Assembly (NCBI GenBank): GCA_024741835.1
Contig: JAENRP010000152.1
Coordinates: forward strand, 37,130 to 101,129
Reading direction: 5' to 3'
Length of the DNA: 64,000 bases
DNA from: Diplocarpon mali
Taxonomy: Eukaryota > Ascomycota > Leotiomycetes > Helotiales > Drepanopezizaceae
Numbering within the stretch: the first letter of the stretch is position 1; each line of letters opens with the position of its first letter. The position numbers and the translations under genes are program-made. This document shows, piece by piece, positions 11,703 through 50,400 of the stretch. Below the pieces are notes generated by a model. That model saw only the letters and a program-made list of their open reading frames with translations. It did no database searches and was not told the origin of the DNA.

Positions 11703-11815
11703 ACTCCTAGTCCTAGCCTATAAATGAAATCTGCGAACTCGAATCCTACTCCTGATCCTAGCCTATAAGTGAAAATTGCAAACTTGAATTCCACTTCTAG
11801 TCTTAGCCTATAAGT
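11703..11815 (+). repeat. Three 45-bp palindrome modules, gypsy-E copy 1
   Basis: Palindrome units at 11703-11725, 11748-11770 and 11793-11815, spaced exactly 45 bp apart (15 codons). They are in sense orientation and in frame with the polyprotein. Confidence 0.8.
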
Positions 11816-13679
11816 GGCCTCTTGCAAACTTAAGGATAGTAGTTTCTTTAAAGACTTGAAAAGAGATTTAAACTATATAAAAAAGGCCTTGCTAAAAGTA
11901 CTAGACCTTTTGCTCCCTCTTTTAATAAAGAGAAACGCTCCTTTAAAGACAGCTTATTAGATTAGCCTAATCTCAGCCTTAGCAATCGGCGCCCTCTACT
12001 ACCGCTTTATAACTAAGGTAAGATAAGCTATATAAACTTAAGAACTAGCACTTAAAGAGTTTATATTTATAAGCTCGATTTATAATCTAAACTAAGAAAT
12101 CAATCGCTAAGAATCGGCTAGGTAAGTTGAAATTAGCTCCCTTAATCTTAGTTTAATATTATAAGCTAAGTATAAGAGTAATAATAAGCTAATAGACTAA
12201 AAGCTCCCGCCTTAGTACGCTAAGTTTAAAAACGTCTTTAATCGCTAGGCCTTTAATCAACTGTCGGAACCTAGGCTAAGGGTAGATTATAAAATTAAGC
12301 TAATAAGCGAGAATAACTTAATAATCGAACCCCTCTGCCGCCTTACTAATAAATAGCTCTCAAAGGTCAAGAGCTATATTCTCAAGAACCTATATAAAGG
12401 ATTTATCAAAGCTTCGAGTTCCCCCTAAGCAGCCCTAATCCTCTTTATTAAAAAAGCTAATAGCTCCTTACGTCTATATATTAACTATCAGAAATTAAAC
12501 GCCTTAATAAAGAAAGACCCCTACCCGATTCTCCTTATTAATAAGATAATAGCACATATATCAAAAGCTTATATTTTTATAAAAATCAATATATAATAAG
12601 CCTTCTACCATATCCGCATATTAGCTGACACTAAGGACCTAACTACCTTTCGCACGCATTATAGGACCTATAAATATAAGGTTTTGCCATTCGGGCTGAC
12701 AAATAGGCCTGCTACCTTTTAGCGGTTTATTAATAATATTCTCCTTAACTACTTTAACAATTTCTACTCTACCTACTTAGATAATATTCTAATTTACTTA
12801 AAAAACTCCCTTAACTATAAGATTTACATTAAGAAGATCTTAAGAATTCTCTAATGCTATAGCCTTTAAGTAGATATTAAGAAAAGCGAGTTCAGAGTTA
12901 CTAAGACTAGGTTCCTAGGGTTTATAATTAAAGTTTATAAAATTAAGGTAAACCCTAATAAGGTCTTAATCATTTAAAAGTAGAAATATACTAAAAATGT
13001 ACATAGTGTATAAAGCTTCCTAAGGTTCTATAACTTCTACTAAAGGTTTATTCAAAGCTATAGTCGTATCTGCCGACCTTTAATAGCTCTTATAGGAAAC
13101 GTTCCTTTTGATTTCAATAACGCTTATAAGAAAGCTTAAGAAGCTCTATGCTTAAGCCTCTAAATGACATCGATCTTATACTACTATTACCCTTAAAAGC
13201 AGATAAGGCTTAAGACCGACGCTTCTAATAGAATAGTCGCCAGCGTACTCTCCTAACTTTAAAAAGACAAGAACTACCACTTAATCGGGTACTTCTTAAA
13301 GACTATAAATAATGCTAAGCTAAATTACCCTATTTATAATAAAGAGCTCTTAGCGATTTTTAGATCGTTCTATTAGTATAAGGCAAAGCTACTTAAGGCC
13401 TAGAAAACAGTATATATATATATAGATCATAAAGCCCTTAAGTACTTTATAACAACTAAGGACTTAATAGCCCAGTAGGCTCGCTAGGCGGAATTCTTTG
13501 CTGATTTCAACTTCCTTATTATATATCAAACGGGTATAACAAATATACTAGCTAATATACTCTTATATCAAGACCAGGAGCTAACCCCTCTTAAGGCTAA
13601 GAAATAAGCTTTACGCCACTAGCAGCTCTTACCTAACGATAAGCTCTTTATAGAAGTACTCGCTACTAGAGGCGATTCC

Positions 13680-13747
13680 ACTCCTAGGCCCGGCCTATAA
13701 ATAACTTTAGCGTAGATCGATTCCACTCCTAGGCCTAGCCTATAAGT
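13680..13747 (+). repeat. Two 45-bp palindrome modules before integrase, gypsy-E copy 1
   Basis: Units at 13680-13702 and 13725-13747, 45 bp apart, each with the AGGCCCGGCCT or AGGCCTAGCCT core. They lie in the linker between RNase H and integrase. Confidence 0.8.
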
Positions 13748-15404
13748 AATAACTATGCCAATCGCGCTAATAAAAGCACCTACTGACCTAATGTCTAAGG
13801 TCGAGTATAATATAGTAAACTACTATATTATCGACGAAGTCATTTAAGCTAATAAGACCTCCCCTAAGCTATAGAAGTTCTAAGATAAAGCGTAGAACTA
13901 TAGCCTCGATTACAAACTTAGCTAAGGTAAACTCTTCTTCTAAGGTAGACTTATTATACTATCCTAACCTCCCGAACTGCGAACAGCCCTAATTTGTCAT
14001 ATATATAAGCAACCTTACGTCGCATACGCTAGAATCGGGAAAATAAGACTTCTAATAGGAAGAAAATACTATTAGAAAAGCCTTAGTAGCAACGTTAGCA
14101 TTTATATTTAAAACTATTATTATTCGAGAATAAAAGCTTATTATAATAAGACCCCTGGTTTCCTATAACCCTTGCTAATTCCCAAATAAGCTTATTAATA
14201 CTTGATAATAGATTTTATAAAGCTCCCGCTTAATAAACTCGGTTATAATTTTACCCTTATAATTATCGATAGGTTATTAAAGAAGGCAGTTTCAATTCTA
14301 TACTATAATTCGGTCGACGCAAAAGACCTTATAGAGTTATTTTTAATTCATTAGATACGCCATTTCGGCATACCTAACTTAATTCTATTAGATAGAAGCG
14401 CCCAATTCGTCTTTACCTTTTAAAAAGAGCTCTATTAAATACTAGGTATAAAGGTTAAGCTAACTATAGCCTATAACCCTAATGTTAATAGCTAAATTAA
14501 GATTATAAACCAGTACTTAAAACAACGCCTTAAGCTATTCTACTCGTACTATTAAGACAATTAAAGTCGTCTCTTGCCTCTGATAGATATTACCCAATTG
14601 ACCTTACCTTACAAATCCCTAGGGCAAATTTCCCCTTTCCAAGTGCTAAACGGCTATAAGGCTCGCTCCTCTTGGAATTTAATTAACTTAAAGCCTCTAT
14701 AGATAGCAACTAAGAGAGTAAATCGTAAAACAGCGCTCTATATAGCTACTAGAGCTTAAAAAGTAGTCCAATTCGCCTAATCGTCTCTTTAAGCATAATA
14801 AATTAAAATAAAATAGCTTATAGATCTCTACTACCAGCTAATTAATTAAATTATAAAAGATGATATACTAATTAGTATTAAGAATTGGAAACTGGACCGG
14901 CCGAGCCGAAAGCTCTCCGATAAGTAATACAGCCTAATAAAAGTACTAGAAAAGCTAGGAAAAAGCTAAAAGCTATAATTACCTGATTCGCTCCGTTCGA
15001 TCTACCCTATTTTCCACTCGCACTTACTACGTAAATACATTCCTAACCCCTTGTTAGGACAAGTTCAAGAACCTCCTATACTAATTAAAGTGCTACTAAA
15101 ATAGGAGGAATAGGAGATAGAAGCAATAATTAGATCTTATATTTAAGCTCGAAAGCTTAAATATCAGATTAAGTAGAAAGGAGCTAATAAAGACCTCGAA
15201 TAGTACCCGTGCTCTAACGCTATAATAGCGCCATATACTATTTAAGATTTCCATTTAAAAAACGTTTAAGCTAAAGGACTACTAAGGGCGCTATTAAGCT
15301 AGCTTAAGTCATATAATAATAGAGTTAAAAATTATAAGGACCTAAAGGATAATACGCCTATAGATACAACTGCGCGGGCGCAGTTTTTCAAAGGGAGAGG
15401 GTAG

Positions 15405-15656
15405 TATTATAGCCGCATTACGTATACGGTTATATCACGTATCGGTTAAGTGCATAAAGTCAAGTGCACACTAAGGTAGCAAGGTGGCTGGATCATGTGC
15501 ACGCTAGTAAAGCACCTGTACTTATTCTGGAGGAGCTCTATTAGAGGCTCTCTCTCCTTTATCTTTTCTTCTTAATTATATAGCGTACCTCTTGAGGTAA
15601 TACAGTCAGCGTCATTCAATTCTCGCCTTCTGTACGCTCGAGAGCAAGTCGTAACA
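15405..15656 (+). repeat. 3' LTR of gypsy-E copy 1
   Basis: 252-bp partner of 8535-8786. It ends AAGTCGTAACA and is followed by the target duplication TTAGA. Confidence 0.85.
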
Positions 15657-15661
15657 TTAGA

Positions 15662-16101: not shown

Positions 16102-16351
16102 TGTAGCAAAGGAGGTTCTCTGATAGTGAACTTGATAGTAAACTAGAAGAGAGGGCACGAAGAAGTATAAGGTGCAAACGACGATGTTGGGTGTCTTAAT
16201 TCATAAGAGCTCTCTAACTAGGAGCTATTTAAGGTAAGCGGCCTTCTTAGTGAAGGCGCTAAGTCATATAGCAAGTTATATGACATATTATATATATAAT
16301 ATATCATATGACAGATCATATAACAAATATATAATAGGCATACCTGCAACA
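16102..16351 (-). repeat. 3' LTR of copia-C copy 1
   Basis: 250 bp. On the plus strand it starts TGTAGCAAAGGAGG and ends ACCTGCAACA. It is rich in CATATGAC-type inverted repeats and is followed inward by the complement of a polypurine tract (CACCCCTTT). Confidence 0.85.
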
Positions 16352-16525
16352 CACCCCTTTAAGGAGACCTTTAAAGGTACTTGCTAGTAATATATATGAT
16401 ATTATAACTTTTATTATAGTTTATAGTTTCGTATAGAAAATCAACTTGCAGATATGGGAAATAGAGTAGAGTTCGCTAGCACGCTCTACTCTAGAGTAGG
16501 AAATCCACCCCTTAGTAAGTCAAAA

Positions 16526-16640
16526 TCAACTCGCAGGCCTAGCCCGGGAGTAAAAAAAAATCACCCCTTAATAGAAGTGTAAAAAAAATCACCTTATAAT
16601 AGAGGTATAAAAAAAAATTACCCTTTAATCGAGGTGCAGA
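16526..16640 (-). repeat. Palindrome unit and A-tract tandem repeats at the 3' end of copia-C copy 1
   Basis: One palindrome unit near 16526, then three tandem units of about 30 bp, each an A8-9 run followed by ATCACCCCTTAATAGAGGTG-like sequence (16548-16640). The same block is at 40327-40445. It lies just after the RNase H stop, so it is 3' untranslated. Confidence 0.6.
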
Positions 16641-18428
16641 ACCTTCATATTTAATAATTTGATAAAGGCGGCGTAGTTGGAGCTATTTAAGCTCTTAATA
16701 AGGCCGTTAGTAGCGTTGTCTTTAGTATTCGTATACTAGAGGTCCAAATGGCCTTTCTAAAGCTCTTACCGAATATAATAGAACTTGATATTAATATACT
16801 TCGTTCTCTAATAATATTCGGGGTTTTTAATAAGATAAAGGGCTCCTTAGTTATTATAGATCATCTCGACTTTAATAGCGTCGTCGCTGGCATAGCCTAT
16901 TTCCTTAAGTACCTGGCGTATCTAAGAGGCTTCTTATACAAATTTGCATATAGTAATATACTCTACCTTTATAGATAAGAGAGCGATAATAGTTTATCAC
17001 TTAAAGGAGGTAGTAATTACGCTATTATTAAAGAAGAAGACGGCCCTAAAATAGGAGACTTTAGTTCCTCTATCACCTACCTAATTAGAATCGCAGTAGC
17101 TATGCAATTTCTAAAGCTTTAAGTCAGTTGTTTTACTTTTAAAGGTAGTATAAAAGAATCGCATTCCTTACAAGTATTATAAAACTCGTTTTAAAGCTAC
17201 TATATATTATAGCAAAGGGTTAATAAGGAATTTGCTAAGAATAGAGCAGTAGTATAGTATATCCTAATATATATAATGCGCAAGGTACTATAGAGAACTA
17301 CAGATCTCCTAATATAGCTTCACTTCTTATAGAATAGCGCGGCCTTCAAATTTGACTATATAAACTTTATAGCTATTAGCAAAAGGCGTTAATACGCTTT
17401 TGCAATTAGTTATATAAAAACGTTTAAAAACCTTATTAATATAGGCATTTTAATAAAGTGAAATCGTTCTATTTTATCGATCTTTGACTATATATACTCT
17501 TAAGAAGTAGTTAGCCAGTTCGCTACCTATAATCTTAAAAAGGTTGCAAAGATCTCTCTTAAACTTATTATATATATTACCTCTCTTAGCTACTATAAGG
17601 AAGTCGTCGATATAAGTAATAATAAGAATCCGAGAGGCGCGGTTAATATATATGCAATTATTAGTATTAAAAGGTTGAAAATCGAGCTTTTATAGCTCAG
17701 ACCGTAGCTTTTCTTACTATAGTCATAGAGATTGCTTTAAGCTATATAAGGCCTTAAGAAGCTTAAGATAGTAGTCTTAAGGTAAAAGAACGACCTTATC
17801 TTAAGTATATCTAAGAGGTAACTTAATATAAATATTAAAGTCAGCTTTTAAATTAAGGAAAGCTATCTTAATATTAAACTGATCTAGCTCAAAGTCGTAT
17901 AGTACTACTAGCGCAATTGCAATCTTCTAAACTGCAGATTTGCAAACTTTAGCAAATATCTAATTGTAATCTCAACCTTATTATTATATATAGCCTTATA
18001 TAATAAATCTGACCTTCTATTAGGAGATTTCCCTATTTTAGTCTCTTTTAGTTTTAAAGACGAGTCTTAATCTAAGTACTTTATTATCTTTAGAGAGTTT
18101 TAAGTATTTTACTACTACCTATATATTCTTATAAGCAAGGGAATTATACTTAAAGTTGATCGCAGATCGCTATTTATCAGTATTAGTATAAGAGAGGGCT
18201 TATTCAACTGTTTTCAGGTCATTTAGGTATAGAGAGTCGAGTAAGGCCATATAGAAGGCGCCTAAATAGGCTTCCTTATTATTAAAGTTATTAGCTTTAA
18301 ATCTAAGAGTATAAGTTAAGCGAGTAGCTCTCTTCTTAAAAGGCTAAGGGTAAGCATTATTCTTTAAACCAAGAGGTCTTCCTCTCTTTCTTAGAGTTAG
18401 AAGCTCAGCTTCTCCTAAATCAGAATTG

Positions 18429-18541
18429 ACTTGCGGTCCCGGTTTAAGAGTAAAATCGTAAAAGTCAGAATTGACTCGCGGTCCTAGACTAGGAGTGAAA
18501 ATATCATTTTAAAAAGTGACTCGCAGGCCTGGCCTAAGAGT
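18429..18541 (-). repeat. Three 45-bp palindrome modules, copia-C copy 1
   Basis: Units at 18429-18451, 18474-18496 and 18519-18541, exactly 45 bp apart. Read on the coding (minus) strand they have the same sense orientation and encode TPSLGPRV-type peptide. Confidence 0.8.
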
Positions 18542-19931
18542 GAAATCACCCTTTAATTGCAGCTCTATAATTAGGCCGTCTTTATTAAATCAAATGTAAG
18601 ATAATTGAATAATCTTATTACCTATTTGCGATAGTATATAGATCTAATAGATACTTCTACTATCAAATCCGATAAGAGTACTTACCTTTGCTTTTAAAGC
18701 GAGTTTATTACTTTAAGTTCGCTTTTCTTTCTCAATTAGTATATAGACGTAATAGCCTAATACTCGAAGATGCTTAACTAAGGGAGTATAAGGCTTATTA
18801 AGCTCAATATTATCCTAAAAGACCTTATATAGAGTCTTGCTACTTAGAATATTAAAGGCGGTAAGATTGGTAATATATATTACCGAAAGAAGGAGATAAG
18901 GCCAGAGAAAGGAGGGGATATTTTAATTAATTATAGCTATTTGCAACTTTTCTATTAGTATACGAATTAATTATTCCAATCTGCTATCTTATTCTAGTAT
19001 ATATAAAGTAGATTCTTTTAAAATTATACTAAGGTTTTCTATAAGTATTTGCATTTATATAAGAGAGTACTCCTTGCCTCTATCAGTTCTCTACCGCTTG
19101 ATTATGCGATTATACTAAGTTTATAAAAGGCTGATCATCTTTTTATTTGCCTTAAAGGCATTAGATTTATTTATATAAGTCTATCCCTATCTAGCTATTA
19201 TAGCTGCGCAAGTAAAGATAGAAGCGTATTTATAGCTATTAAGGCTAGTTAGCTTTAAATAAACCACATCGATATATAGCTTATCAAGTGCCTTCGTAGG
19301 TTAAGGGCGAGCTAAACGTTTATTAATATATTAAAGAGGTCTGCCTTTCTTATAAGGAGCGCAGATTCGCGTCTTCCTTAATTTTATTTCCTTAATCTAT
19401 ATATTAATAATAGCAGATTGGGTCTTTCTGACTATTTATAAGCTAGCGTAGCCTAATCGATAGTACTAAAGCTTAATATTAAGAGGTCTATTCTTAATTG
19501 CAGCTAAGAGAGCATATCTACTTATATAATTAGAGGAGTTAGTAAAAGGCTATTCCTTATTAATATATATATTATTATCGATAGTATAAATTTCCTTTTT
19601 ATTAGATAAGAATAGCTTGCTATTTCGATAGAAGCCTTTAATTTTATTAAGTTTGCTACTTAAGTATAAGTAGATAGGTAATTAAAGTATATAAAGAGTA
19701 TTAATTAACTTAAGAATATATACCTTTCTATTAGATTTAAGTGTATTGACTTTATAAGTGCTAATACCGAGAGGTTAAATAGATCTATTAACTATACTTA
19801 AAGAGGGTAGATTATCTTAAGTAGTATAAGAAGTGAACTTAGAAAGATTATTAGAGATATACTCACTAGCACCTATATTATATAACTAACGATTCCTCAA
19901 TTTTAATAAGAAGCAGGAGGTAGAAGAACTA

Positions 19932-20007
19932 ACTCTTAATCCCGGCCTGCGAGTGGAAATTGGCCTTAGAGAGGAGTCGGAATTAAGTCCTAGGCCCGGC
20001 TCGCGAA
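19932..20007 (-). repeat. Two palindrome units, copia-C copy 1 Gag region
   Basis: Units at about 19932-19954 and 19985-20007. The second has a variant start (AGTCCTAGGCCCGGC). Their counterparts in copy 2 lie near 43760-43830. Confidence 0.6.
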
Positions 20008-21441
20008 TGAGAATTGGCCCTAGGGTTAGTAATAGCATAGTATGCCTAAAGAGGTCATTATCTGACTCTTTATCTTCCTTCTGAATCTTCCTAAAAGGCT
20101 TTTGCCTTTTAGTAATAATAATAGCAAAGATTTATCGTCCTTACCTTTAAAGTGACGAAATACGTACTTCTTCCCTAAATCCTTCTCCTAGGCCTCTCTT
20201 TTCGATTTATTAATTGCAAAGCAATCTTCTACCTTATAATATAGCTCTAGTTGCTTGCAATAAGGACAGGGGGAGTTAGGAGAGTTGGTAGTATTCCTAA
20301 AGGTACTCTTTATTAAGTCTTTAAAACCTCCCTTGTTTTCTGACTTCTTATTAGAAGAGTGCGGCTTACCAGCCGATTTATTACTATATAAGACAGTTCC
20401 GTTTATCTTTAAACTCTATAAGGCTCGAGCTTTATTAGTAATATCTTTAATAAGAGCTTTAAGCGTGATTTCTGATTTTCGTCCAGCTGCTATAGCTAAG
20501 CGAAGGTTAGAGCGTTATCGATCTACTTAAATAGGCCATCTATTGGAATAGCTAGCAATAAATATAATAGGATACTAGTAAGAGGGAGGGGCAAAGTCGA
20601 AAGCTTCTAATTTAGTGATTGAAAGCCTAAAGGCGACGATATAAGCTTCGAGTGAATTGAAGTTATTATATTTAATAGTAATATAGGTCTATATAGCGTT
20701 ATATTCAAGCACTATTCCAGATCCTTTATACTATTTTTAAAAAGCTTCCTATATATCTAAGGCAGATTTATCGCCTTCTATATAAGCTAATAGGCCTAGT
20801 TTACAATTAAGTATAATAGTAAGCTTCATCTAAGATTCCTTAGCTTCCTATCTAATCCAATTATCCCTTTCCTTAAGAGTAATAGAACAGTCCTATAAGT
20901 CAACCTTAGGTAGAGTATATATTCTAGCTTTTATATAAAGATATATAGTTAAAGCGTTTAACTTTGCAAGGTTCAAAACCTTATTCCTCTACTAGCTATA
21001 ATCCTCTACGCCTTTAAGCTTTTAAGACTCAAGGAGGCTAAGGGCAGCCGAAGATAATAACAATATCTTATTTATATATATATATATAGAGTTATCGAAA
21101 GGAGGAGAAGGAGGAAGAGGAGGAGATGAACTATTAAATTCGAGTTTAGGGTACTATATATCAGTCCCTTTAAAATTAGGTAATTCAAGCAGTAGAGTAC
21201 TTTCAGCAATTAAGCTAATAATCTTAGCTATCAATCCTAATAATTCAACTATAGTGACGAATCTTGCGTAAGCTTGGATTATTGCATAGCACTCCGAAAG
21301 GGGAGTAGCCACTATTTTATTATTGAAATAACGCTATCATACGTCATTGGTTAAGTAAAACTCAAAATATCGATCAGCCTTTTCGTTTGTAAGAGAGACT
21401 CTAATCGATGGAATTTATCGAATGCTATTCATAAGCATACG

Positions 21442-21453
21442 GGGCTCATAACC
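21442..21453 (-). other. Primer-binding site of copia-C copy 1
   Basis: GGTTATGAGCCC on the minus strand, directly next to the 5' LTR. It is complementary to the anticodon-loop region of initiator tRNA-Met, as in Drosophila copia (half-tRNA priming). It is one of the few copies not hit by RIP. Confidence 0.6.
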
Positions 21454-21703
21454 TATAGCAAAGGAGGTTCTCTAATAGTAATCTTAATAGTAAACTAGAA
21501 GAGAGGGCACAAAGAAGTATGAGGTGCAAACGACGATGTTAGGTGTCTTAATTCATAAGAGCTCTCTAACTAGGAGCTATTTAAGGTAAGCGGCCTTCTT
21601 AGTAAAGGCGCTAAGTCATATGGCAAGTCATATGACATATCATATGTATAATATGTCATATGACAGATCATATGACAAATATGTGACAGGCATACCTGCA
21701 ACA
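21454..21703 (-). repeat. 5' LTR of copia-C copy 1
   Basis: 250 bp. A 38-bp near-perfect inverted repeat (17 of 19 pairs) built from GTCATATGAC blocks lies at 21627-21664. It ends CCTGCAACA at 21703. Confidence 0.85.
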
Positions 21704-21708
21704 ACTAA

Positions 21709-21826
21709 TTATTAACTTCCTTTAAAAAGCACTTAAGCTATAACTATTAGTAAGAAGTTGAATGAGACTTATAGTAAAAGGCGAGCAATCGGCGAATAAG
21801 AGGTATAATTCCCTATTTAGCTAACC
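21709..21826 (+). mobile_element. copia-B leader, continued
   Basis: It continues the leader broken at 16101 (same sequence as 31017-31137). It ends at 21826, where another copia-B LTR begins. Confidence 0.7.
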
Positions 21827-26570: not shown

Positions 26571-26620
26571 TGTAGCAATTAGGTTCTCTAATAGTGAACT
26601 TGATAGTAAACTAGAAGAGG

Positions 26621-36480: not shown

Positions 36481-36494
36481 CAGGCTTAAGGACG

Positions 36495-36644: not shown

Positions 36645-36982
36645 AGGATTAGTGATTTCAATAGAGGTTGCTATTAATTGATTGTTTTTAATTTAAAGAG
36701 ATATTTAAGAGTTGGATTAGTATAAAAGGATAATTATTATTTTCTTAACTGTAAGTTAATTAGAGTAAGGTCTAAGTAAGGGTATTAAGATAGGTAATAT
36801 AGCTATTACTCTAATATATTATCATATGACCCTACTGCTTAGTCAATAGGATATTAATATATATATAGCTATAAGGAAGAAAGGGGTAACCTTCCTTCCT
36901 TAACTCTTATTAATATATCGACTATCGACCTTTAGAAGTTTCTTATACCTACTGCGCCGACTTATTTAAGCTCAATAGGTTT

Positions 36983-39620
36983 TACTATTTAAGCTAATAA
37001 ATAGGCCTGCTACCTTTTAGCGGTTTATTAATAATATTCTCCTTAACTACTTTAATGATTTCTACTCTACTTACTTAGATAATATTCTAATCTACTTAGA
37101 AAACTCCCTTGACTATAAGATTTATATTAAGAAGATCTTAGGAATTCTCTAATACTATGGCTTTTAAGTAGATATTAAGAAAAGCGAGTTTAGGGTTACT
37201 AAGACTAGATTCCTAGGGTTTATTATTAGAGTTTATAGAATTGAGGTAGACCTTAATAAGGTCTTAGTCATTTAAGAGTAGAAATACACTAAGAATATAT
37301 ATAGTATATAAAGCTTCCTAGGGTTTTGTAATTTCTACTAAAGGTTTATTTAAGGCTATAGTTATATCTGCCGACCTTTAATAGCTTTTATAAGGAATAT
37401 TCCTTTTAATTTTAATAACGCTTATAAAGAAGCTTAGGAAACTCTGCGCTTAAGCCTTTAAATAACCTCGATCTTATGCTACTATTACCCTTAGAAGTAG
37501 ATAAGGCTTAAGACCGACGCCTCCGATAGCATAGTTGCCAGCATACTCTTTTAACTCTAGGAGGATGATAACTACCACCTAATTAGGTACTTCTTAAAGA
37601 CTATAAATAACGCTAAGCTGAATTACCCTATTTATAATAAGGAGCTCCTAGCGATTTTTAGATCATTCTACTAGTATAAGGTAGAGCTACTTAGGGCTTA
37701 GAAAATAGTATACGTATATATAGATTATAAAGCCCTTAAGTACTTTATAATAACTAAAGACTTAATAGCCTAATAGGCCTACTAGGCGGAGTTCTTTACT
37801 AATTTCAACTTCCTTATTATATACCGAATAGGTATAACGAATACGCTAGCTAATATACTCTTACGTTAAGACTAGGAGCTAACCCCTCTTAAGGCTAGGA
37901 AACGAGCGTTACGCTACTAGTAGCTCTTGCCTAATGATAAGCTCTTTATAGAAGTACTTACTATTAGAAATGATTCTACTTCTAGGCCTGCCTTATAAGT
38001 GACTTTAGCGCAGATCAATTCCACTCCTGGGCCTGGCCTATAAGTGATAATTATGCTAATCGCGCTAATAGAGGCACCTGCCGACCTAACGTTAAGGGTT
38101 AAGTACGATATAGTAAGCTATTATATTATCAATAAGGTCATTTAAGCTAATAAGACCTCCCTTAAGCTATAGAAGTTCTGAGATAAGGCGCAGAGCTATA
38201 GCCTTAATTATAAACTTAGCTAAAGCAAACTCTTCTTCTAAGGTAGACTTATTATACTATCTTAACCTCCTGAACTGCGAATAGCCCTAATTCGTTATAT
38301 ATATAAGTAACCTTGCGTTGTATACGCTAGAATTGGGAAAATAAGGCTTTTAATAGGAAGAAAATACTATTAGAAAAGCCTTAGCAGCGACGTTAGTACT
38401 TATATCTAGAACTATTATTATTCGAGAATGAAAGCTCGTTATAATAAGACCCTAGGTTTCCTATAACCCTTACTAATTCTTAAATAAGTATATTAACACT
38501 TGACTATGGATTTTATAAAGCTCTTACTTAACGAACTTAGCTACGACTTTGCATTAGTAATAATAGACCGATTGTTAAAGAAGGCAATATCGATCCTATA
38601 CTATAAGACGGTTGATGCAAAAGGCCTTATAGAGTTGTTTTTAATTTATTAGATATGCTATTTTAATATGCCTAACTTGTTTCTATTAAATAGAGGCGCC
38701 TAATTCGTCTCTACTTTTTAAAAAGAGCTCTATTAAATACTAGGTATAAAGGTTAAGCTAACTATAGCTTATAACCTTAATATCAATAGCCAAACTGAGA
38801 TTATAAACTAGTATTTAAAATAACGCCTTAGACTGTTCTACTTATACTATTAAGATAATTAGAGTCGTCTTTTGCCTTTAATAGATATTGCCCAATTGAC
38901 CTTGCCTTATGAATGACTAGGGTAAATTTCCCCTTTCTAAGTGCTAAACGGCTATAAAGCTCGCTCCTCTTAGAATTTAATTAACCTAGAGCCTTTACGG
39001 ATAGCAACTGAGAGATTAAATTGTAAAACAGCGCTTTGCGTAGCTATTAGAGCTTAAAAAGTAGTCCAATTCGCTTAATTATCTCTTTAAGTATAATAAG
39101 CTAAAATGAAACGGCTCGCAGATCTTTACTACCGGCCAGTTGATTAGACTATAAGAGATAATATGCTAATTAGTATTAAAAACTGGAAACTGGACCGGCC
39201 GAGCCGAAAGCTCTCCGATAAGTAGTACGGCTTAGTAAAAGTACTAGAAAAGCTAGGAGAAAGCTAGAAGCTATAATTGCCTGATTCGCTTAGTTCAATT
39301 TACCCTATATTCTACTCCTACTTACTGCGGAAATACGTCCTTAACCTTCTGCTAGGCTAAGCTTAGGAACCTCTTGCTTTAATTAAAGTATTGCTAGAAT
39401 AAGAGGAGTAAGAGATAGAAGAAATAATTGGATCTTATATTTGAGCTAAGAAGCTTAAATATTAGATTAAGTGGAAAGGAGCTAATAAAGACCTTAAATG
39501 GTACCTATGCTTTAACGCTATAATAGCGCTGTATACTATTCGAGATTTCCATTTAAAGAACCCTTAAGCTAAGGGGCTATTAAAGGTACTATTAAGCTAG
39601 CTGAGGTTATATGATAATAG
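36983..39620 (+). pseudogene. gypsy-E copy 2 Pol, right part (RT to chromodomain)
   Basis: It resumes the frame broken at 30791. RT has YLDN at about 37072-37083, then come RNase H, two palindrome units (37978-38045), integrase (about 38280-39080) and the chromodomain (about 39418-39566, with IKWKGANKDL and DFHLKN). Stops throughout. Confidence 0.72.
37978..38045 (+). repeat. Two 45-bp palindrome modules, gypsy-E copy 2
   Basis: Units at 37978-38000 and 38023-38045, again exactly 45 bp apart, at the same place as 13680-13747 in copy 1. Confidence 0.8.
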
Positions 39621-39702
39621 AGTTGACGATTATAGGGACCTAGAGGATAATATACCTATAGATACAACTGCATAGGCGCAGTTTTTCAAAGGGGGGAGGT
39701 AG

Positions 39703-39963
39703 TATTACGGCCTTATTACGTGCGCGGTTGTATACGGTTATATTACGTATCTATTACGTATCAAAGTCAGGTGTACGCTAAGGTAGCGAGGTGGCTGGAT
39801 CACGTGCGCGCTAGTGAAGTACCTATACTTATTCTAGAGGAGCTCTACTAGAGACTCTCTCTTCTTCTTCATCTTTTCTTTTCCATTATATAGCGTACCT
39901 CTTGAGGTAATACAGTCAGCGTTCGATTCTCGCCTACTGTACGCTCCAGAGCCAGTCGTAACA
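39703..39963 (+). repeat. 3' LTR of gypsy-E copy 2
   Basis: 261-bp partner of 26621-26881. It begins TATTACGGCC and ends CAGTCGTAACA. The 3' half is almost free of RIP changes. Confidence 0.85.
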
Positions 39964-40326
39964 AGAGGGCACGAAGAAGTATGAGGTGCAAACGACGATG
40001 TTAGGTGTCTTGATTCATAAGAGCTCTCTAACTAGAAGCTATTTAAGGTAAGCGGGCTTCTTAGCGAAGCCGCTAAGTCATATAGCAAGTCATATGACAT
40101 ATTATATATATGATGTATTATATGATAGATCATATGACAAACATGTGATAGGCATACCTGCAATATACCCCTTTGGGGAGACCTTTAAAGGTACTTGCTA
40201 ATAATATATGTGATATTATAACTTTTGTTATAATTTACAGTTTCGCATGAAAAATCAACCTGCAGATATTGGAAATAGAGTAGAGTTTGCTAGCGCGAAA
40301 TCCACCCCTTAGTAAGTCAAAATCAA

Positions 40327-40445
40327 CTCGCGGGCCCGGCCCAGGAGTAAAAAAAAAAAAAATCACCCCTTAATAGAAGTGCAAAAAAAAATCACCCTAT
40401 AATAGAGGTATAAAAAAAAATCACCCCTTAATCGAGGTACAGAAC
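40327..40445 (-). repeat. Palindrome unit and A-tract repeats at the 3' end of copia-C copy 2
   Basis: Counterpart of 16526-16640. A palindrome unit with an intact CGGGCCCGGCCC core is followed by three A-run/ATCACCCCTTAATAG units. Confidence 0.6.
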
Positions 40446-43400
40446 CTTTATATTTAACAATTTGATAAAGGCGGCGTAGTTAGAGCTATTTAAGCTCTTA
40501 GTAAGGCCGTCGGCGGTATTATCTTTAGTATTCGTATACCAGAGGTCCAAATGGCCTTTCCGAAGCTTTTGCCGAATATAATAAAACTTAATATCAATAT
40601 GCTTCGTTCTCTAGTAATATTCGGGATTTTCAGTAAGATAAAGGGCTCTTTAATTATCGCAGATCATCTCGACTTTAGTAGCATTGTCGCTAGCGTAGCC
40701 TATTTCCTTAAGTACCTGGCGTATTTAAGAGGCCTCTTATGCGAATTTGCATATAGCAATATACTCTGCCTCTATAGATAAGAGAGCGATAATAGTCTAT
40801 CGCTTAGAGGAGGTAGTAATTATACTATTATTAAGGAAGAAGACGGCCCTAGAATAGGAGGCTCTAGTTCCTCTATCGCCTGCTTAGTCAGAATCGCAGT
40901 AGCTATACAATTTCTAAAGCTCTAGGTCAGTTCTTTTACTTCCAAAGGTAGTATAATAGAATCGCGTTTCTTATAAGTATTATAAAACTCATTTTAAAGC
41001 TACTATATATTATAGCAAAGGGTTAATAAGGAATTTGCTGAGAATAGAGCAATGGTATAGTATATCCTAACGCATATAGTGCGCAAGGTACTATAGAGAA
41101 CTATAGATCTCTTAATATAGCTTTACTTCTTATAGAGTGGCTTGGCCTTCAAATTTGACTATATAAACTTTATAACTACTAGCAAAAGGCGTTAGTATGC
41201 TCTTGCAATTAATTGTATAAAAACGTTTAAGAACCTTATTAATATAGGCATCTTAATAAAATGAGATCGTTTTATTTTATCGATCTCTTACTATATATAC
41301 TTTTAAGAAGTAGTTAGCCAGTTCGCTACTTATAATCTCAAAGAGGTTGTAAAGATCTCTTTTAAACTTATCATATATATTACCTTTCTTAGCTACTATA
41401 AGGAAGTCGTTAATATAGGTAATAATAAGAATCTAAGAGGCGCAGTTGATATATATGCAATTATTAGTATTAAGAGGTTGAAAATCGAGCTTTTATAGCT
41501 TAGACTATAGCTTTTCTTACTATAGTCGTAGAGATTGCTTTAAGCTATATAAGGCCTTAAGAAGCTTAAGCTAGTAGTCTTAAGGTAAAAGAACGACCTT
41601 ATCTTAAGTATATCTAGGAGGTAGCTTAATATAGATATTAGAGTTAGCTTCTGAATTAAGGAAAGCTGTCTTAACGTTAAACTGATCTAGCTTAAAGTTA
41701 TATAGCGCTATAAGCGCAATTGCAATCTTCTAGACCGCAGATTTGCATACTTTAGCAAAAGTCTAATTGTAATCTCGACCTTATTATTATATATAGCCTT
41801 ATATAACGAATCTGACCTTCTATTAAGAGATTTCCCCATTTTAGTCTCTTTTTATTTTAAAGACAAGCCTTACTCCGAGTACTGTATCGTCTTTAAAGAG
41901 TTCTAAGCGTTTTACTACTACCTATATATTCTTATAAGTAAGGGAATTATACTTAAAGTTGATCGCAGATCGCTATTTATTAGCGTTAGCGCAAGAGAGG
42001 GCTTATTCGACTATTTTAAGGTCATTTAAGTATAAAGAGTTGAGTAAGGCTATATAAAAGGCACTTAAATAGGCTTCCTTATTATTAGAGTTATTAGCTT
42101 TAAATCTAAGAGCATAAGTTAAGCGAGTAGCTCTCTTCTCGAAAGGCTAAGGGTAAGCCTTATTCTTTAAATTAAGAGGTCTTTCTCTCTTTCTTAAAGT
42201 TAGAAGCTCAGCTTCTCTTAAACTAGAATTAACTCGCGGTCCCAGCCTAGGAGTAGAATCATAAGAGTCAGAATTGACTCGCGGTCCTGGCCTAGGAGTG
42301 AAATTATCGTAAGAGTTAGTATTATTATTATATTGAAAAGTGACTCGCGGGCCCGGCCTAAGAGTGAAATCACCCCTTAATTGCGGCTTTATAATTAGGC
42401 CGTCTTTATCGAATTAAATATAAAATAATTGAATAATCTTTTTACCTATTTACGATAGTATATAAATCTAATAAATACTTCTACTATTAAATCTAATAAA
42501 AGTACCTACCTCTACTTTTAAAGTGAGTTTATTACTTTAAGTTCGCTTTTCTTTCTTAATTAGTATATAGATGCAATAGCCTAGTACTCGAAGATGCTTA
42601 ACTAAGGGAGTATAAGGCTTATTAGGCTTGATATTATCCCAAAAGACCTTATATAAAGTCTTGCTACTTAGAATATTAAAGGCAGTAAGATTAATAATAT
42701 ATATTATTAAAAGAAGGAGATAAGGCTAAAGAAAGAAAGGGATATTTTGGTTAATTACAACTATTTGCAACTTTTCTATTAGTATGCGAATTAATTATTC
42801 TAATCTACTATCTTATTCTAGCGTATATAAAGTAGATTTCTTTAAAATTATACCGAGGTTTTCTATAAGTATTCGCATTTATATAAGAGAGTACTCTTTG
42901 CCTTTATCGGTTCTCTATTGCTTAATTATGCAATTATATTAAGTTTATAAAAGGCTAATTATCTTCTTATTTGCCTTAAAGGTATTAGATTTATTTATAT
43001 AAGTCTATCCCTATTTAGCTATTATAGCTAGGCAAGTAAAGATAGAAGCATATTTATAGCTATTAAGGCCAGTTGGCTTTAAATGAACTATATCGATATA
43101 TAGCTTGTTAAGTGCCTTCGTAGGTCGAAGGCGAGCTAAACGTTTATTAATATATTAGAGAGGTCTGCCTTTCTTACAAGGAGCGCAGATTCGCGTCTTT
43201 CTTAATTTTATTTCCTTAATCTGCATATTAGTAATAGTAGATTAAGTCTTTCTAACCGTTTATAGGCCAGCGTGGTTTAATCGATAGTACTAAAGCTTAA
43301 TATTAAGAGGTCTATTCTTAATAGCAGCTAGAAGAGCATATCCACTTATATAACTAAAGGAGTTAGTAGAAGGCTATTCCTTATTAATATATATATTATT

Positions 43401-45270
43401 ATCGATAGTGCAAATTTCCTTCTTATTAGATAGGAACAGCTTACTATTTCGATAGAAGCCTTTGATTTTATTAAGTTTACTACCTAAGTATAAGCAGATA
43501 GGTAATTGAGGTATATAGAGAGTATTAATTAACTTAAGAATATATACCTTTCTATTAGATCTAAGTGTATTAACTTTATAAGTACTAATGCCAAGAGGTT
43601 AAATAGATCTATTAACTATACTTAAAGAGGGTAGATTATCTTAAGTAGTATAAGAAGTAAACTTAGAGAGATTATTAGAGATATGCTTACTAGCACCTAT
43701 ATTATATAGCCAACGATTCCTCAATTTTGATAAGAAGCAAGAGGTAGAAGAACTAAGTCTTAAGCCCGGCCTATAAGTGGAAATTGGCCCTAGGGAGGAG
43801 TCTGAATTAAGTCCTAGGCCCGGCTCGCGAGTAAGAATTGGCCCTAGGGTTAGTAATAGTATAGTATACCTAAAGAGGTTATTATCTAACTCTTTATCTT
43901 CCTTTTAAATCTTCTTAAAAGGCTTCTTACCTTTTAATAATAATAGAAAGGACTTATCGTCCTTGCCTTTAAGGTAGCGGAATACGTACTTCTTCCTTAA
44001 GTCCTTCTCCTAAGCCTCTCTTTTCAATTTATTAATTGCAAAGCAATCTTTTGCCTTATAGTATAGCTCTAGTTACTTATAATAAGGATAAGGGGAGTTA
44101 AGGGAGGAGGTAGTAGTATTCCTAAAGGTACTCTTCTTTAAGTCTTTAAAACCTCCTTTGTTTTCTGACTTCTTATAGTTAAAGGAATGCAGCTTGCTAG
44201 CCAATTTATTACTATATAAGACGGTTCTATTCATTTTTAAACTCTATAAGGCTCGAGCTTTATTAGTAATATCTTTAATAAGAGCTTTAAGCGTAATCTC
44301 TGATTTTCGTCCAACTACTATAGCTAAGTAAAGGTTAAAGCGTTATCGATCTGCCCAAATGGGCTATCTATTAGAACAGCTAATAATAAATATAATAGGG
44401 TGCTAATAAGAGAAAGGGGCAGAGTCGAGAGCTTCCAATTTAGTAATTGAAAGTCTAAAGGCGACGATATAAGCTTTAAGTAAGTTAAAGTCGTCATATT
44501 CAATAGTAACGTAGGTCTATATAGTATTGTATTTAAGCATTGTTCCAGATCTTTTATACTATTTTTAAAGAGCTTTCTATATATCTAAGGCAGATTTATC
44601 GCCTTTTATATAAGCTAGTAGGCCTAGTTTGCAATTAAGTATAATAGTAAGCTTTATCTGAGATTCCTTAGCTTCCTATTTAACCTAATTGTCCCTTTCC
44701 TTAAGTATAATAGAACAGTCCTATAAGTCAACCTTAAGTAGAGTATATATTTTAGCTTTTATATAGAGATATATAGTCAAGGCGTTTGACTTTACAAGGT
44801 TCAAAACCTTATTCTTCTACTAGCTATAGTCCTTTGCGCCTTTAAGCTTTTGAGACTTAAGGAGGCTAAGGGCAGCCGAAGATAACGACGATATCTTATT
44901 TGTATATATATATATAGAATTATCGAAAGGAGGAGAAGGAGGAGGAGGAGGAGATAAACTATTGAATTCGAGTTTAAGGTACTATATATCAGTCCTTATA
45001 AGATTAGGTGATTCAGGCAGTAGAGTACTTTTAGCAATTAAGCTAGTAATCTTAGCTATCAGTCCTGATAATTCAGCTATAGTAACGAATCTTGCGTAAG
45101 CTTAGATTATTACATAGCGCTCCAGAAGGGGAGTAGCCACTGTTTTTATTATTGAAATAACGCTATCGTACGTTATTAGTTAAGTAAAAAAAAAAACTTA
45201 AAAATATCGATCAGCCTTTTCGTTTATAAAGGAGACTCTGATCGATGGAATTTGTCGAATGCTATTTATA
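40440..45270 (-). pseudogene. copia-C copy 2 Gag-Pol pseudogene
   Basis: The second copy of the copia-C polyprotein, with the same domain order as copy 1: Gag at about 45200-43700, integrase at about 43280-42500, RT at about 41700-41100, RNase H at about 40950-40440. The RT catalytic box near 41395-41430 reads YINDFLI, so the first catalytic Asp has become Asn, a RIP-type change. Palindrome units lie at 42232-42365 and about 43760-43830. Dead. The open plus-strand frame at 40551-40781 is its antisense shadow. Confidence 0.75.
42232..42365 (-). repeat. Three palindrome modules, copia-C copy 2
   Basis: Units at 42232-42254 and 42277-42299 (45 bp apart) and 42343-42365 (66 bp further, an extra 21 bp of TTA-rich linker). 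The third has an unmutated GGGCCCGGCC core. Confidence 0.8.
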
Positions 45271-45542: not shown

Positions 45543-48500
45543 TTTGCTTAAAGATTAATATAGTTCCTATCTTATTTAATATACTTAGCGAAACTTATAT
45601 CTTTTAGAACTTAGGCAATTTATAATCCTTGCTTGCAATTTGATAATATTAATATATATTCGGCCTTAGTGCTTGCGGTAGCTATTGATTTCTACTTCCT
45701 ACTTCCTTATAATATAGGTCTATTATATAGTACTGCTATACTTTCAAATATACTTTTTCAACCTTTTATATTTACCTAATTAGAATTAGTATATACCTTA
45801 AGCTTTGCGCTTATATATTTCATTAGTCTATATCTTACCTTTTATATAATTATCGATTGAAGGTACCTTCTAAGTCGCTTGACTGCATTCTTATATTAAA
45901 TCGTTAGATCCTTTAGGTTTTGACTAAGTTGCCTAATAATAAAGGCGATATTTAGTCTTATATATACTATAATATATATAATTGCTTTAATATCCTATTA
46001 ATACTTCTTTAAATCTCCTTTCTATTTATTTTTATTAATAGGCTTTAACTTATTATACTTTCCTTCGATTGGAGTACGCTTTGGCTTAAAGTTAAAAGTA
46101 TAAGTAGAGAGTCTTATTTAGTCTAGGATCTTCTTAATATACTGCTCTTAGTCTAATTAAAGTTCTTAAGTAGAACGGTTCCTTATAATGCAGATGCTAA
46201 GGATCTTATGAATTCCCTTTAAATCCTTGGTATTAAAACGTTTTTAAATTATTATAAAGAACTAATCTAATTAAGTGGTTGTTTTCGTAGCTATAGTAAT
46301 ATTGTCGATATATAATAGCAACTTGATTCTACGCTTAATATAGGTAAATAGACAAGGGTTAGCTAGGCTTTGAACAAATCCTATTTCTATTAGAGTAAAG
46401 CTATATAAGAGGTTTTAATTATAAGCTGATTATTTAAGTCTATAGATACTATAGAGTATATAAAGAGAGTGGCTAGCGCGTATAAGAATACCGTTAGGTT
46501 AGGAGAGAAAAATCCGTTCCTTTATAATCGCTTTAGTAAATGCATTTTTAATATTATACTATTTATATTTAAAGTCCTTAGCAGCTACTATTACTATAAA
46601 TATGCAAAGGGTATCTATACGAACTATTAGTGCAAATGTATCGAAGTAGTCTTCTTTATACTATTAGGAAAAGCCCTTAGCTATAAGCCTTGCCTTATAA
46701 CATTCTAAGGTCCTATCTATATATATCTTAATTTTAAAGACCCACTTTATTAATACTAGGTTTATATCCTTTAGTATTAGTTCCTTTATCTATATGCTAT
46801 TTATAATAAGAGAGCTTATCTCCTTTTAAATTGCCTTATTCTATACTACTCTATTCTCTAGATCGTTAATAGCTTTATTATATATCTTTAAAAGAGAGAT
46901 TTTCATTATCCTTTTAGTAGCTAGGAATGTATTATCTTTATTAAAGCTCTATTAAAGTTCGAGCTTATAGATCTTATATGCTATTATAGCTTAGATACGC
47001 TTAGACTTACATTTGTCTAAGGTGTCTTTTAGTTCTAGGTTTTTATTCCTTTTTAAAGGCATAGGTTTAGCTATAGGTTCTAAAGGCTTATTATCTAAGG
47101 AACTGCTTTCTAGTAGTAGAGGCTTATTATTACTTATACCTATTTTAGGAATATGCTTTACTATAGGTACTTTAACTAAAGGGATAATGATATTAAAGTT
47201 ATTTTATACTTTAAGTAGTTTGCAAACGATAGGAATAGTCTATTCGGCCTTTAGGCGATTAGTAGGTCGTCGATTAGCAGATGCGCTTAATATACTTAAG
47301 TTAAAAGAAAGGGATTATTAGTTCGGCTTAATAGTATTACTATTAAGTAGTATACCTTGCGAATCTTTAAGTATATAGAGCCTTAAGGATAGCTCCCTCC
47401 TATTTTGAAATTCGTCGAACTCAACTATTAAGGATATAATCACTTGCCTTAGATCTAGTGCGTATACTATCTATTGCTTTATTATCTATTTAATATACTT
47501 AATAAATATATACTCTCTATCTTAATCTATTAGCTTTTTGCTCTTTATACCTGCGGGCTAGGACTTTAGGCTAATATAAGAGTAGTAAACGCTTTTAAAG
47601 ACGCAGATATAGTTTAAGCTTAGTTTCTATTCGAAATATGCCTTATATAGCGATATTTAGGTACTATTAACTATTAGTCTACTACCTATTCTATTTTGCA
47701 AGTATGCGTCTGCTTTAATTGTAAGGTCTTAGAATTCTAGTAGTAAGTTAGTATCTTATAATAAAGCGTAATAGTTAGTCTCTATTTGCTAGATGCTTCG
47801 CTTAATAATACTATTTTAATAAGAACCTTTGTATATTATAGTTAGTTTATAATAAACTCCTTATTTTGCCTATTTCTTAAGCTTTGCCTTAATCTCTAAT
47901 ATATTATTAAACTTAATAGCTATTAGCTTTAATTAAGTTTAGCGTTCCTTTATCACTTTTTAAGTTTTTAGCTTTTCTATAAGCTTAGATTTAGTCCTAG
48001 CGCAAATAGTCTATATCTATTAAGTGGAGTTATCTACTATTTGAGAAAACTAATTATTTCCTTTAATTAAGGTTATAAATAGTCTAATAGTATTAATAGA
48101 TATTAGTGCTAATATCGAATCTTTTTATAAACTAAGCTTAGTTTATATCTGATTTTAAAGTTTTATTAGCTTGCAAATTCGGTATACTAGGCGATCCTTT
48201 AGTACTTAGATCTTCTGTTTTAGGATTAAGACCTTATATAGGCCCTTTAATTTCTTTAGCTTTAAATATGCGAATCTTTTATATATTAGCTAATACCTTA
48301 ATAGGCTTTCGGCTTCTAATAGCCTTAATAGCTTATTATTAGTTGATACTTTATTATTAGCAGTTAAAAAGGACTAGTAATAGTAGTTTAAGGTTTTGCT
48401 ATTTTCCAATTGTAAGCCTAGCTTAAGAGTCGTTTTTAATAAAACCGCAAGATCTACTCGCGGTCCTGGCTTAGGAGTCGATTTCCTAGAAATAGCAAGA

Positions 48501-50400
48501 TCCACTTATAGTCTTAGCTTAAGAGTCGTTTTTAACAAATCTGCGAAGTTTACTTATAGTCTTAGCCTAAGAGTCATTTTTGCGAATTTCACTTACAATC
48601 TTAGCTTAAGAGTTATTATTAGTAAATCTATAGAATCTACTCGCGGTCTTAGCTTAAGAGTCATTTCTATTAAATTCACTTATAATCCTAGCTTAAGAGT
48701 TATCTTTAAGAATACCTTGCAATCTACTTATAATCCTAGCTTAAGAGTTATTTTTGCGAATTTCACTTGCGATCTTAGCTTAAAAGTCTATTTATTCTCC
48801 TTATCTTTACTTAATTGTATTAAGGTAAAGAGTGCACTTTCTTTAAAGGAATCTACTTATAAGTCTGGCTTAAGAATCAATTTCTATAATATTACCTTTA
48901 AGATAATATAAAGTCTATTTTTAATTTTAGCTTTAAAGATCACTTTATAATTATTATTTATAAATTATATAAATTGATTATTAAAAACTCTTATATAATT
49001 TAACTTTATATAGATCTTGCGATTAAATAAAAGATTAATACTTAAGCTAAGCATAAGGAGAATATTTTATAAAAGGAAAGAAATGCTAGCGATATTTATC
49101 TCTATTATACTTATTAAGTTTATATATAACCTTTTACTACTAACCTTAATAGAGCGCCTTTTTATTTTAGTAAGCGGGCCTTTAAATAGGTAGGGTTTAT
49201 TAGTTATATATGCTATGCAATTAGTATTATTATACTAATCGAATTTAGGGATCTTATAAAGATCGGCTTTTAAAATGTAAGCATCTTTATTATAATTATT
49301 ATTTGAATTATTAGAAGTGGATTTAGGTTTAGATAACCTACTATTATTATTAGAGGTATTTGCTAAAGTTTTAGCTAAATAGCCTTTTCCTTTGCCTTTC
49401 CTTAGTAGTTGCGGCCTTTAGTAGGATAAGGGTAGTTTGCTTCTTAACTTTTGCTTTAATTGCTTTTTAATATTAAAGCTAGTGACTTTATTAATTAGTT
49501 GCCTTTTAATTTTATAATTAGTAATATTATAAGTACTATTATAGAAGTAGCATCTCTAATAAGCTCGAGGGCTTATCCTATGCTCCTTCCTCTTCTTAGG
49601 CTTATTGTTACCTTATAATACAGCATTTGCTAATTTAAAGTATCCTTTAAAGTCTTGCTTAATAGTTCGAAAGAGGTCGATCTTTTTATAAATCTTAAGG
49701 TTAGGTTAGATAAGAAGAGATTGTTTTATAATAGCGAACTTAAGAGGAAGGCTATTAAGTAGGAAATTAAAAAGCTGAGTTTCCTTAAAAGTCATAGCTA
49801 TCCTAGGATTTATAGCTCTTACTTTCCTCTTTACTTTATATAATATAAACTAGGTAGAGTCTATATTTATATCTATATCCTTACTATCTTTGTCTTTTTT
49901 ATATTAAAATGAAGTAATCTATTATAGTAGATACTAGGTTTTAAGGGTAATTGTTTAAGAGTATTTTGCCTTTAAAGTATCTTATCTTATCTTTGCGTTA
50001 TTATAAATTTAAATAAAATCTTAGTCTTTATCATTTAAACCTCTATTGATCTTAAGCTTACATTTAGCTAAGGCCAGCTTATACTCCTTTTCCTTTTCTA
50101 TATTTAAAATCTGCCTTTAGGATTCTTAGTTATTATCTACTAAGGCTCTTAAGCTAAGCTTATTTAGTATATTTGGCAAATCCTTAGCAGTTGTATTAGC
50201 TATTAAAGTAGAAGTAGACGAATCAGTAGAAGGAGTATAAGGGGCTATTCTCGCGTATTTAATAAGTGTCTTTTAAATCGCTATTTCGATACCTTTGCTT
50301 TTGAAGTAAAGCTTTAAATTATCGAACTATTATTGCTAGTTCTTTCGAGAGAGTTGGAGGTCTTTAGATCTAGTGTTTCGATTGGAATCGGAAGCTATTA
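45543..50400 (-). pseudogene. copia-B reverse copy Gag-Pol pseudogene, main part
   Basis: The minus strand gives Gag (about 50350-49500), a palindrome array (about 48872-48406), integrase (about 48300-47330), RT (about 46740-46200, with LLYIDN near 46300 where the second catalytic Asp is Asn) and the first part of RNase H up to 45543. The frame continues at 26570. The long plus-strand frames at 47013-47321 and 48396-48911 are antisense readings of the integrase-RT linker and of the palindrome array. Confidence 0.78.
48406..48872 (-). repeat. Array of palindrome modules, copia-B reverse copy
   Basis: About ten units on the minus strand, homologous to 32914-33383. Several keep GGTCCTGG or GGTCTTAG cores. 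The array happens to stay open in the antisense frame for 171 codons. Confidence 0.75.

Follow-up and report, generated by a model that had tools for sequence, protein, structure and literature searches.

Repeated palindromic sequences are known from several systems. The palindromic elements of Rickettsia are described as sequences of ~150 bp, in ten families, that lie inside the open reading frames (ORFs) of unrelated genes and mostly are in frame (PMC10969869). The GC clusters of yeast mitochondrial DNA are portrayed as short G+C-rich palindromes of sporadic distribution that are proposed to be mobile by a mechanism that is debated; the GC42 cluster is 42 nt in length and a putative target-site duplication at AG is noted (PMC4478555). 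The short palindromic repeats of Volvox carteri form hairpins, are considered selfish and occur in both orientations in organelle and nuclear DNA (PMC2670323), and tandem arrays of protein-coding palindromic repeats that are tied partly to mobile elements form the subject of another account (PMC2996958). Here, a palindromic module of 23 bp in retrotransposons of the fungus Diplocarpon mali was analyzed. The window is a stretch of 64,000 nt at positions 37130–101129 of contig JAENRP010000152.1 (C152) in an assembly of 49.4 Mb and 676 contigs. A preliminary description had proposed that a small palindromic module is common to unrelated Ty3/gypsy and Ty1/copia elements, in which it occupies interdomain linkers, and that its behavior resembles that of the Rickettsia elements. 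Both proposals are supported, and the module probably is a DNA-level insertion unit that entered at least five unrelated element families on many separate occasions.

The 23-bp near-palindrome was found by direct reading of the window at every coordinate that had been given previously, and extra copies which had not been listed are present at 26176, 40326, 43756 and 43810. A scan of the window with ACTCGCAGGCCNGGCCTGCGAGT as consensus, in which ≤9 mismatches including ≤3 transversions were permitted, matched 47 sites compared to 1, 0, 1, 2 and 4 in five Markov simulations. In the window, 35 sites are exact matches to the degenerate pattern ACTYNYRRKYYNRRMYYRNRAGT which allows for decay and is its own reverse complement, so that each site is counted once per strand. 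The genome-wide search that the preliminary description had envisaged produced 7,877 exact ACTYNYRRKYYNRRMYYRNRAGT sites in the whole assembly, compared to none with the reversed control. Searches with the bare core AGGCCCGGCCT matched 143 sites in forward and 145 in reverse direction compared to 12 in the control, but this probe was dropped and replaced with the degenerate pattern because four AGGCCCGGCCT matches in G+C-rich DNA (L035–L038) showed no module. Little-mutated copies (≤2 mismatches), of which the assembly contains 217, approach the perfect palindrome ACTCGCGGGCCNGGCCCGCGAGT. Exact ACTCGCGGGCCNGGCCCGCGAGT was not found among the low-decay DNA copies, those listed being one base off in a manner that differs between site types, and perfect palindromes are present in more decayed form. 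All of 18 stretches fetched from the little-mutated class (L042–L059) look like element DNA, as judged by Pfam matches for L051 and L058 and by similarity to earlier loci for the remainder. The matches listed for ACTYNYRRKYYNRRMYYRNRAGT are 51 sites within the first 522,786 bases of contig C1; among these, 50 fall within three blocks (43–3707, 394937–441947 and 506725–522786) and a solitary site is located at 292109 in A+T-rich DNA (L062). Beyond the listed sites, single-copy genes may also contain copies. The earlier figure of 9 pairs out of 11 in the best copy stands within the window, but not elsewhere, where pairing extends up to 11/11, and many copies retain 5–8 pairs. The degenerate pattern was absent from the bacterial and archaeal collection that was searched; one match in a viral contig of 70% G+C was taken as chance. 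No such module in fungal nuclear genomes turned up in the literature consulted, though one may be in print. Overall, the palindromic module is real and is more widespread than was stated originally.

The module sites and their host elements in the window are given below; sense strands were assigned by Pfam matches for gypsy-E (+), copia-C copy 1 (−) and copia-B copy 1 (+).

8535..15661, + strand: gypsy-E copy 1, host, with long terminal repeats (LTRs) at ~8535–8791 and 15405–15661 (direct repeats), and RVT_1 and RNase H in 12600–14099
9931..9953, + strand: gE1, module at gypsy-E site 1 (exact degenerate match)
11703..11815, + strand: gE2, gypsy-E site 2, three modules with 45-bp spacing in frame 1 (scan)
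13680..13747, + strand: gE3, two modules with 45-bp spacing in the RNase H-integrase linker, frame 1, which is also that of a Pfam RNase H match immediately upstream
16150..21801, − strand: copia-C copy 1, host, with LTRs at ~16150–16449 and 21502–21801 (direct repeats), SH3, RVT_2 and a sub-threshold gag match
16529..16551, − strand: cC3, copia-C module downstream of pol and ahead of the 3′ LTR, probably non-coding (scan)
18429..18541, − strand: cC2, three modules in the integrase-reverse transcriptase linker of copia-C, frame 1, shared with an upstream Pfam match to SH3
19932..20008, − strand: cC1, two modules between gag and integrase in copia-C, frame 1, reversed orientation (scan; low-decay copy L044)
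24301..25800, − strand: gypsy relative, for comparison only, with no module in the RNase H-integrase linker (Pfam; alignment to gypsy-E)
26176..26324, − strand: cB3 in a copia-B 3′ fragment, three modules with spacing of 65 and 61 bp (inverted match to 36245–36977)
26620..39961, + strand: gypsy-E copy 2, split by nested copia-B (direct repeats), with RVT_1 and RNase H in 36301–37800
28035..28057, + strand: gE1 of gypsy-E copy 2 (scan)
29810..29922, + strand: gE2 of gypsy-E copy 2, three modules with 45-bp spacing (scan)
30794..36977, + strand: copia-B copy 1, host, with LTRs at ~30794–30986 and 36785–36977 (repeats), SH3 and RVT_2
32914..33383, + strand: copia-B degenerate module array with 39/48/87-bp spacing, frame 1; SH3 match downstream in the same frame
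36495..36644, + strand: cB3 near the copia-B 3′ LTR, three modules with spacing of 61 and 66 bp; the first may be frame 2 and the others probably are non-coding
37978..38045, + strand: gE3 of gypsy-E copy 2, two modules (scan)
40326..40348, − strand: cC3 of copia-C copy 2, module (scan)
42232..42365, − strand: cC2 of copia-C copy 2, three modules with spacing of 45 and 66 bp (scan)
43756..43832, − strand: cC1 of copia-C copy 2, two modules (scan)
48408..48877, − strand: copia-B array, copy 2, inverted relative to copy 1 (inverted arms 31365–36254 and 45537–50426)

Copia-B copy 1 is nested within gypsy-E copy 2, and the second copia-B copy is inverted at ~45.5–50.4 kb. The copia-B arrays leave ~175 codons open on the strand opposite to the polyprotein (32880–33407, −; 48387–48911, +), where gene finders may call false genes. 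Tandem repeats of 28–29 bp with A runs adjoin the copia-C 3′ LTR and cC3 (16550–16636 and 40354–40441).

Among the loci examined, 23 host sites were distinguished: three in gypsy-E, three in copia-C, two in copia-B, four in X, eight in element Y, one in gypsy-F, and the further places L054 and L062. The sites were counted by hand from labels, as automatic flank clustering merged some of them into 20 clusters. X is not counted as a family separate from gypsy-F, as its gag region, which is gag-like by eye and gave nothing above the Pfam cut-off, matches a gypsy-F copy with 80% identity over 801 bases. That copy, L080 (C1:394500–400700), carries five modules that range from the gag leader up to the linker of RNase H and integrase: the first two X sites match sites in L080 and so are shared by descent, and two of its sites (3363 and 3525) are additional to the 23. 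All 150 scored own-genome matches to gypsy-F (of 268 candidates) align through the position of the module. Element Y is a repeated element with two similar long ORFs (L001, C1:401000–409999), in and beside which its eight sites lie, with some site pairs homologous. Neither reverse transcriptase nor any other Pfam domain was matched in Y at 0.01, and a structure model was uninformative (mean predicted local distance difference test score 28.7); Y is an unclassified, perhaps lineage-restricted, mobile or multicopy family. Four Y homologues (P0065–P0068; 1,071–1,157 residues) were retrieved, all named Diplocarpon coronariae, a species for which published assemblies are given as 50–54 Mb with ~34% repeats in two of them (PMC11527701). 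These intact proteins keep module peptides at three or four places (TRGPGPRV, TPGPGSRV, TPGPGPRL) which show the state of the module prior to decay. Similarly, the gypsy-E homologue P0003 of D. coronariae contains a pair of module-like peptides, with 15 residues from one to the next, at the position that the module has in gypsy-E. Thus, the module is not confined to three families at homologous positions: at least five unrelated families host it (gypsy-E, gypsy-F with its gag relative X, copia-B, copia-C and element Y), and the positions are non-homologous.

Related elements that lack the module were examined at the corresponding places. Modules occur in the integrase-reverse transcriptase linker in 7/7 copia-C loci compared to 0/7 loci from other families of copia; the linker is not covered in L073, the eighth locus fetched. 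An SH3 Pfam match was detected in four of five scanned module-free copia loci (L070, L072, L074 and L077, not L071), and the linker therefore is covered in these four. Two more loci beside RVT_2 matches, L060 and L061, contained no module. Among 19 copia-C homologues, a strict motif flagged none and a loose motif flagged only P0077, which has a Ser/Pro run; the homologue P0069 aligns through SH3 and resumes at KRGRP with the intervening linker free of the motif. A loose motif flagged P0002, P0003 and P0039 among 64 gypsy-E homologues, not all of which span the module site; of the three, P0003 alone shows it at that site. In the gypsy relative at 24301–25800, the alignment with gypsy-E has a 13-residue linker gap that covers the first residues of the module peptide. 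As the other copia loci, this gypsy relative and most outside homologues are without the module, it is not an ancestral gypsy/copia domain, which had been raised as an alternative. Module-free homologues exist, but their linkers are too divergent for insertion boundaries to be placed.

The reading frame of the module was assigned by the fewest stops within 300 bases, with frame 1 defined as ACT CGC GGG CCN GGC CCG CGA GTN. For each of the 17 representatives taken as frame 1, stops are least frequent in that frame, by small margins in three cases, and their peptide is T(P/R)GPGPRV. The constant TPxxGLxV peptide that had been inferred from the window did not survive the wider comparison, nor did an initial view in which every coding site used frame 1. 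In gypsy-F (L051 and L058) the RNase H and Integrase_H2C2 matches share one frame, and the intervening module is read in its frame 2, where it encodes peptides such as LAVLARE and TRLAVLARES, and X2615, a gag-leader site, also is in frame 2 as judged by downstream stop counts in six copies. The first module of cB3 may be in frame 2, and for cC3 none of the frames is clearly open in L045, L046 and L049. Frame-1 copies have an identity of 0.82 among themselves; the two frame-2 copies are 0.84 identical to them, and the two probable non-coding ones (cC3 and cB3) 0.80. As the frame-2 gypsy-F peptide differs while its DNA stays as similar, the unit is DNA. No coding site in frame 3 was seen among the sites tallied. 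Over sites, frames 1, 2 and 3 were tallied at 14:2:0 (P = 1.9e-5 by exact multinomial test), which becomes 12:2:0 (P = 1.3e-4) once the homologous Y pairs are merged. Frame 3 is supposed to be lost since early decay creates TAG there, and frame 1 to give the most flexible peptide. Orientation was evaluated by CCT/GC asymmetry: gypsy-E, copia-B and the copia-C integrase-reverse transcriptase copies run with the host ORF, whereas copia-C 19932–20008 and X3621 run against it, at odds with the sense orientation that had been claimed throughout. Because the module is a palindrome, the frame-1 peptide is near-identical in either orientation.

Spacing of exactly 45 bp had been reported as frequent in the arrays. 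This value applies to gypsy-E, but not to copia-B (39/48/87 bp, and 61/65/66 bp in the 3′ arrays) and in copia-C is one of several (45/48/54/66/72 bp). The number of units at gE3 is one in L015, L027, L029 and L031, two in L011, L012, L025, L028, L033 and both window copies, and three in L021 and L034; these copies were picked by module patterns and zero-unit copies therefore could not appear. At gE2, L015, a relative with fewer mutations, contains two complete modules plus a stub. As gypsy-E copies carry one, two or three units of core plus flank, the proposal that a 45-bp unit is itself the mobile piece gives way to local tandem duplication as the likelier origin, and the 45-bp arrays look like duplications of this type.

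The 46 arms of the host sites share flanking preferences. A purine is present at +2 in 46/46 arms and at +3 in 41/46, W-W-Y preferences continue through +6, C and G are overrepresented at +1, and there is a weak deviation at +8. The symmetric preference therefore spans 35 bp, comprising the 23-bp core and six bases per side that read outwards N-R-R-W-W-Y. Such a pattern would be expected of a symmetric target and equally of a palindrome that once was longer and has degraded; a test of flank covariation for a longer palindrome gave no excess pairing. A one-base target duplication also was rejected, as the same letter occurs at −1 and +1 in 7/23 sites, which is not above permutation, and in 6/23 on re-derived representatives.

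A DNA-level palindromic module, with a core of 23 bp near ACTCGCGGGCCNGGCCCGCGAGT before decay, that entered the families repeatedly is the best reading of these results and is reasonably probable; we infer both the origin of each site by insertion and the route. Several observations weigh against it. Covariation between the two flanks of individual sites was not seen. A target-site duplication was not found, with repeats of 1 bp in 6/23 sites and of 2–5 bp in 0/23. Clean insertion boundaries, on which the preliminary description had placed weight, were looked for, but the search for a homologous site without the module gave nothing at the DNA level: among 40 scored gypsy-E copies (of 190 candidates), which were retrieved with a query that itself held one module, spans were 631–651 and none had the zero-module length. 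Hairpin folding clearly exceeded that of shuffles in only two of six copies (z of −2.6 and −3.1), with values of −1.5, −1.5, −1.3 and +0.5 for the remaining four. The frame skew is strong, stops present in the module before mutation do not account for it, and selection at the peptide level may contribute; moreover, both frame-2 sites belong to the gypsy-F/X lineage and the probable non-coding set, cC3 and cB3, is small.

The frame skew is a natural starting point for the view that it is the peptide which is shared, in which case the P/G-rich T(P/R)GPGPRV would have a function in polyproteins, as a linker, a cleavage site or a motif for binding, convergent or recombined, and the palindrome a by-product of its codons. 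The dominance of frame 1, the position of module sites at polyprotein domain boundaries and the peptides kept by the intact Y proteins agree with this view. However, the same DNA is read as an unrelated peptide in gypsy-F and X2615 with identity kept, the probable non-coding copies stay similar, and the purine at +2 extends to all arms, probable non-coding and frame-2 ones included. Sharing at the peptide level is weakened already by the present evidence and is judged unlikely. The palindrome instead might be a cis-acting RNA or DNA site, such as a dimerization or packaging signal of the genomic RNA, a reverse-transcription pause or a protein-binding dyad, which is common to families that use or compete for the same machinery. 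A hairpin-forming palindrome does occur in coding and 3′ parts of several retroelement families, and fungal GalEa copia elements are reported to carry a conserved hairpin with palindromic sequence next to their 5′ LTR (PMC5445492). Nevertheless, elements carry several sites in variable number and some families have none, pairing is lost in several copies (5–7/11), and Y is without a recognizable reverse transcriptase, which together make a cis-acting role quite unlikely.

Spread by recombination or template switching between module-bearing elements, with few true insertions and a single origin as an ordinary tandem repeat in one element, would accord with the strong local duplication in the variable arrays, with the nesting of module-bearing elements in the window and with the descent of the X and gypsy-F gag sites from a common source. 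Conversely, the significant flank preference stops at +6 with only a weak signal at +8, cross-family flank matches fit neighboring modules within arrays, and the module is found in different frames and orientations; this explanation is regarded as very improbable.

Under repeated insertion, the module would enter internal parts of repeated elements in this fungal lineage many independent times, with the six symmetric bases on each side either preferred at the target or carried by the module. In proteins it would survive where addition of a short linker is tolerated. Local tandem duplication then would generate the arrays of 39–72 bp, and amplification of the host elements would multiply modules to thousands, with copies decaying by mutation that presumably resembles repeat-induced point mutation. 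Template switching onto the hairpin during reverse transcription is ranked first as a possible route, and DNA insertion driven by a nuclease or transposase is ranked second as a somewhat more doubtful one. If insertion is confirmed, transposable elements are themselves hosts to mobile sequences of even smaller size, and repeated invasion of coding DNA is within the reach of a gene-less sequence of 23 bp. The low-decay copies and variable copy number make movement of the palindrome testable by strain comparison, and the module is an unusual source of new protein linkers. Overall, the interpretation in the preliminary description is partly supported.

Two other features of the window were noted. 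Its end (63889–64000) consists of 18.7 perfect AGGGTT copies and is read as a telomere, and a G+C-rich island at 6271–7570 contains ORF pieces that resemble a protein kinase by eye, no search having been made.

Like the Rickettsia elements as they are described (PMC10969869), the module is dispersed palindromic DNA in unrelated ORFs that keeps the frame and adds a peptide. Maintenance of the frame is evident from the gypsy-F domains which flank the module in one frame and from the 17 frame-1 representatives, across five families. In contrast to those elements of ~150 bp, the module is 23 bp (35 bp with flanks) and resides in fungal nuclear DNA; its hosts are transposable elements, and it appears in two frames, both orientations, tandem arrays and, through host amplification, thousands of copies. 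As with GC clusters, it is a short G+C-rich palindrome dispersed in A+T-rich DNA, but it has no 2–5 bp target-site duplication at any of 23 sites, and whereas the clusters are mitochondrial the window copies sit in retroelements on a contig with a probable telomeric end. COX1, looked for as a marker of mitochondrial DNA, had no match in the assembly. The V. carteri repeats also are short, palindromic and in both orientations, but their mitochondrial copies are reported only from intergenic or intronic DNA, save for one rRNA module, and the nuclear copies are read as inert organelle transfers (PMC2670323). The repeat of PMC2996958 is depicted there as a 25-residue amphipathic unit of bacteria and microbial eukaryotes, compared to eight codons here, and the likeness is one of description only. 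The absence of a target-site duplication at the 23 sites also separates the module from miniature inverted-repeat transposable elements; a parent transposase of that type was not identified, although no transposase search of the genome was made and Y is without a Pfam match. Tentatively, the module may be a eukaryotic nuclear counterpart of the protein-coding palindromic elements: a hyperparasite of transposable elements of 23–35 bp with symmetric targets, probably copied as a hairpin in reverse transcription, that encodes nearly the same benign peptide on either strand and spreads among unrelated retroelement families in one genome. The module behaves like the Rickettsia palindromic elements and the mitochondrial GC clusters, and belongs to neither.

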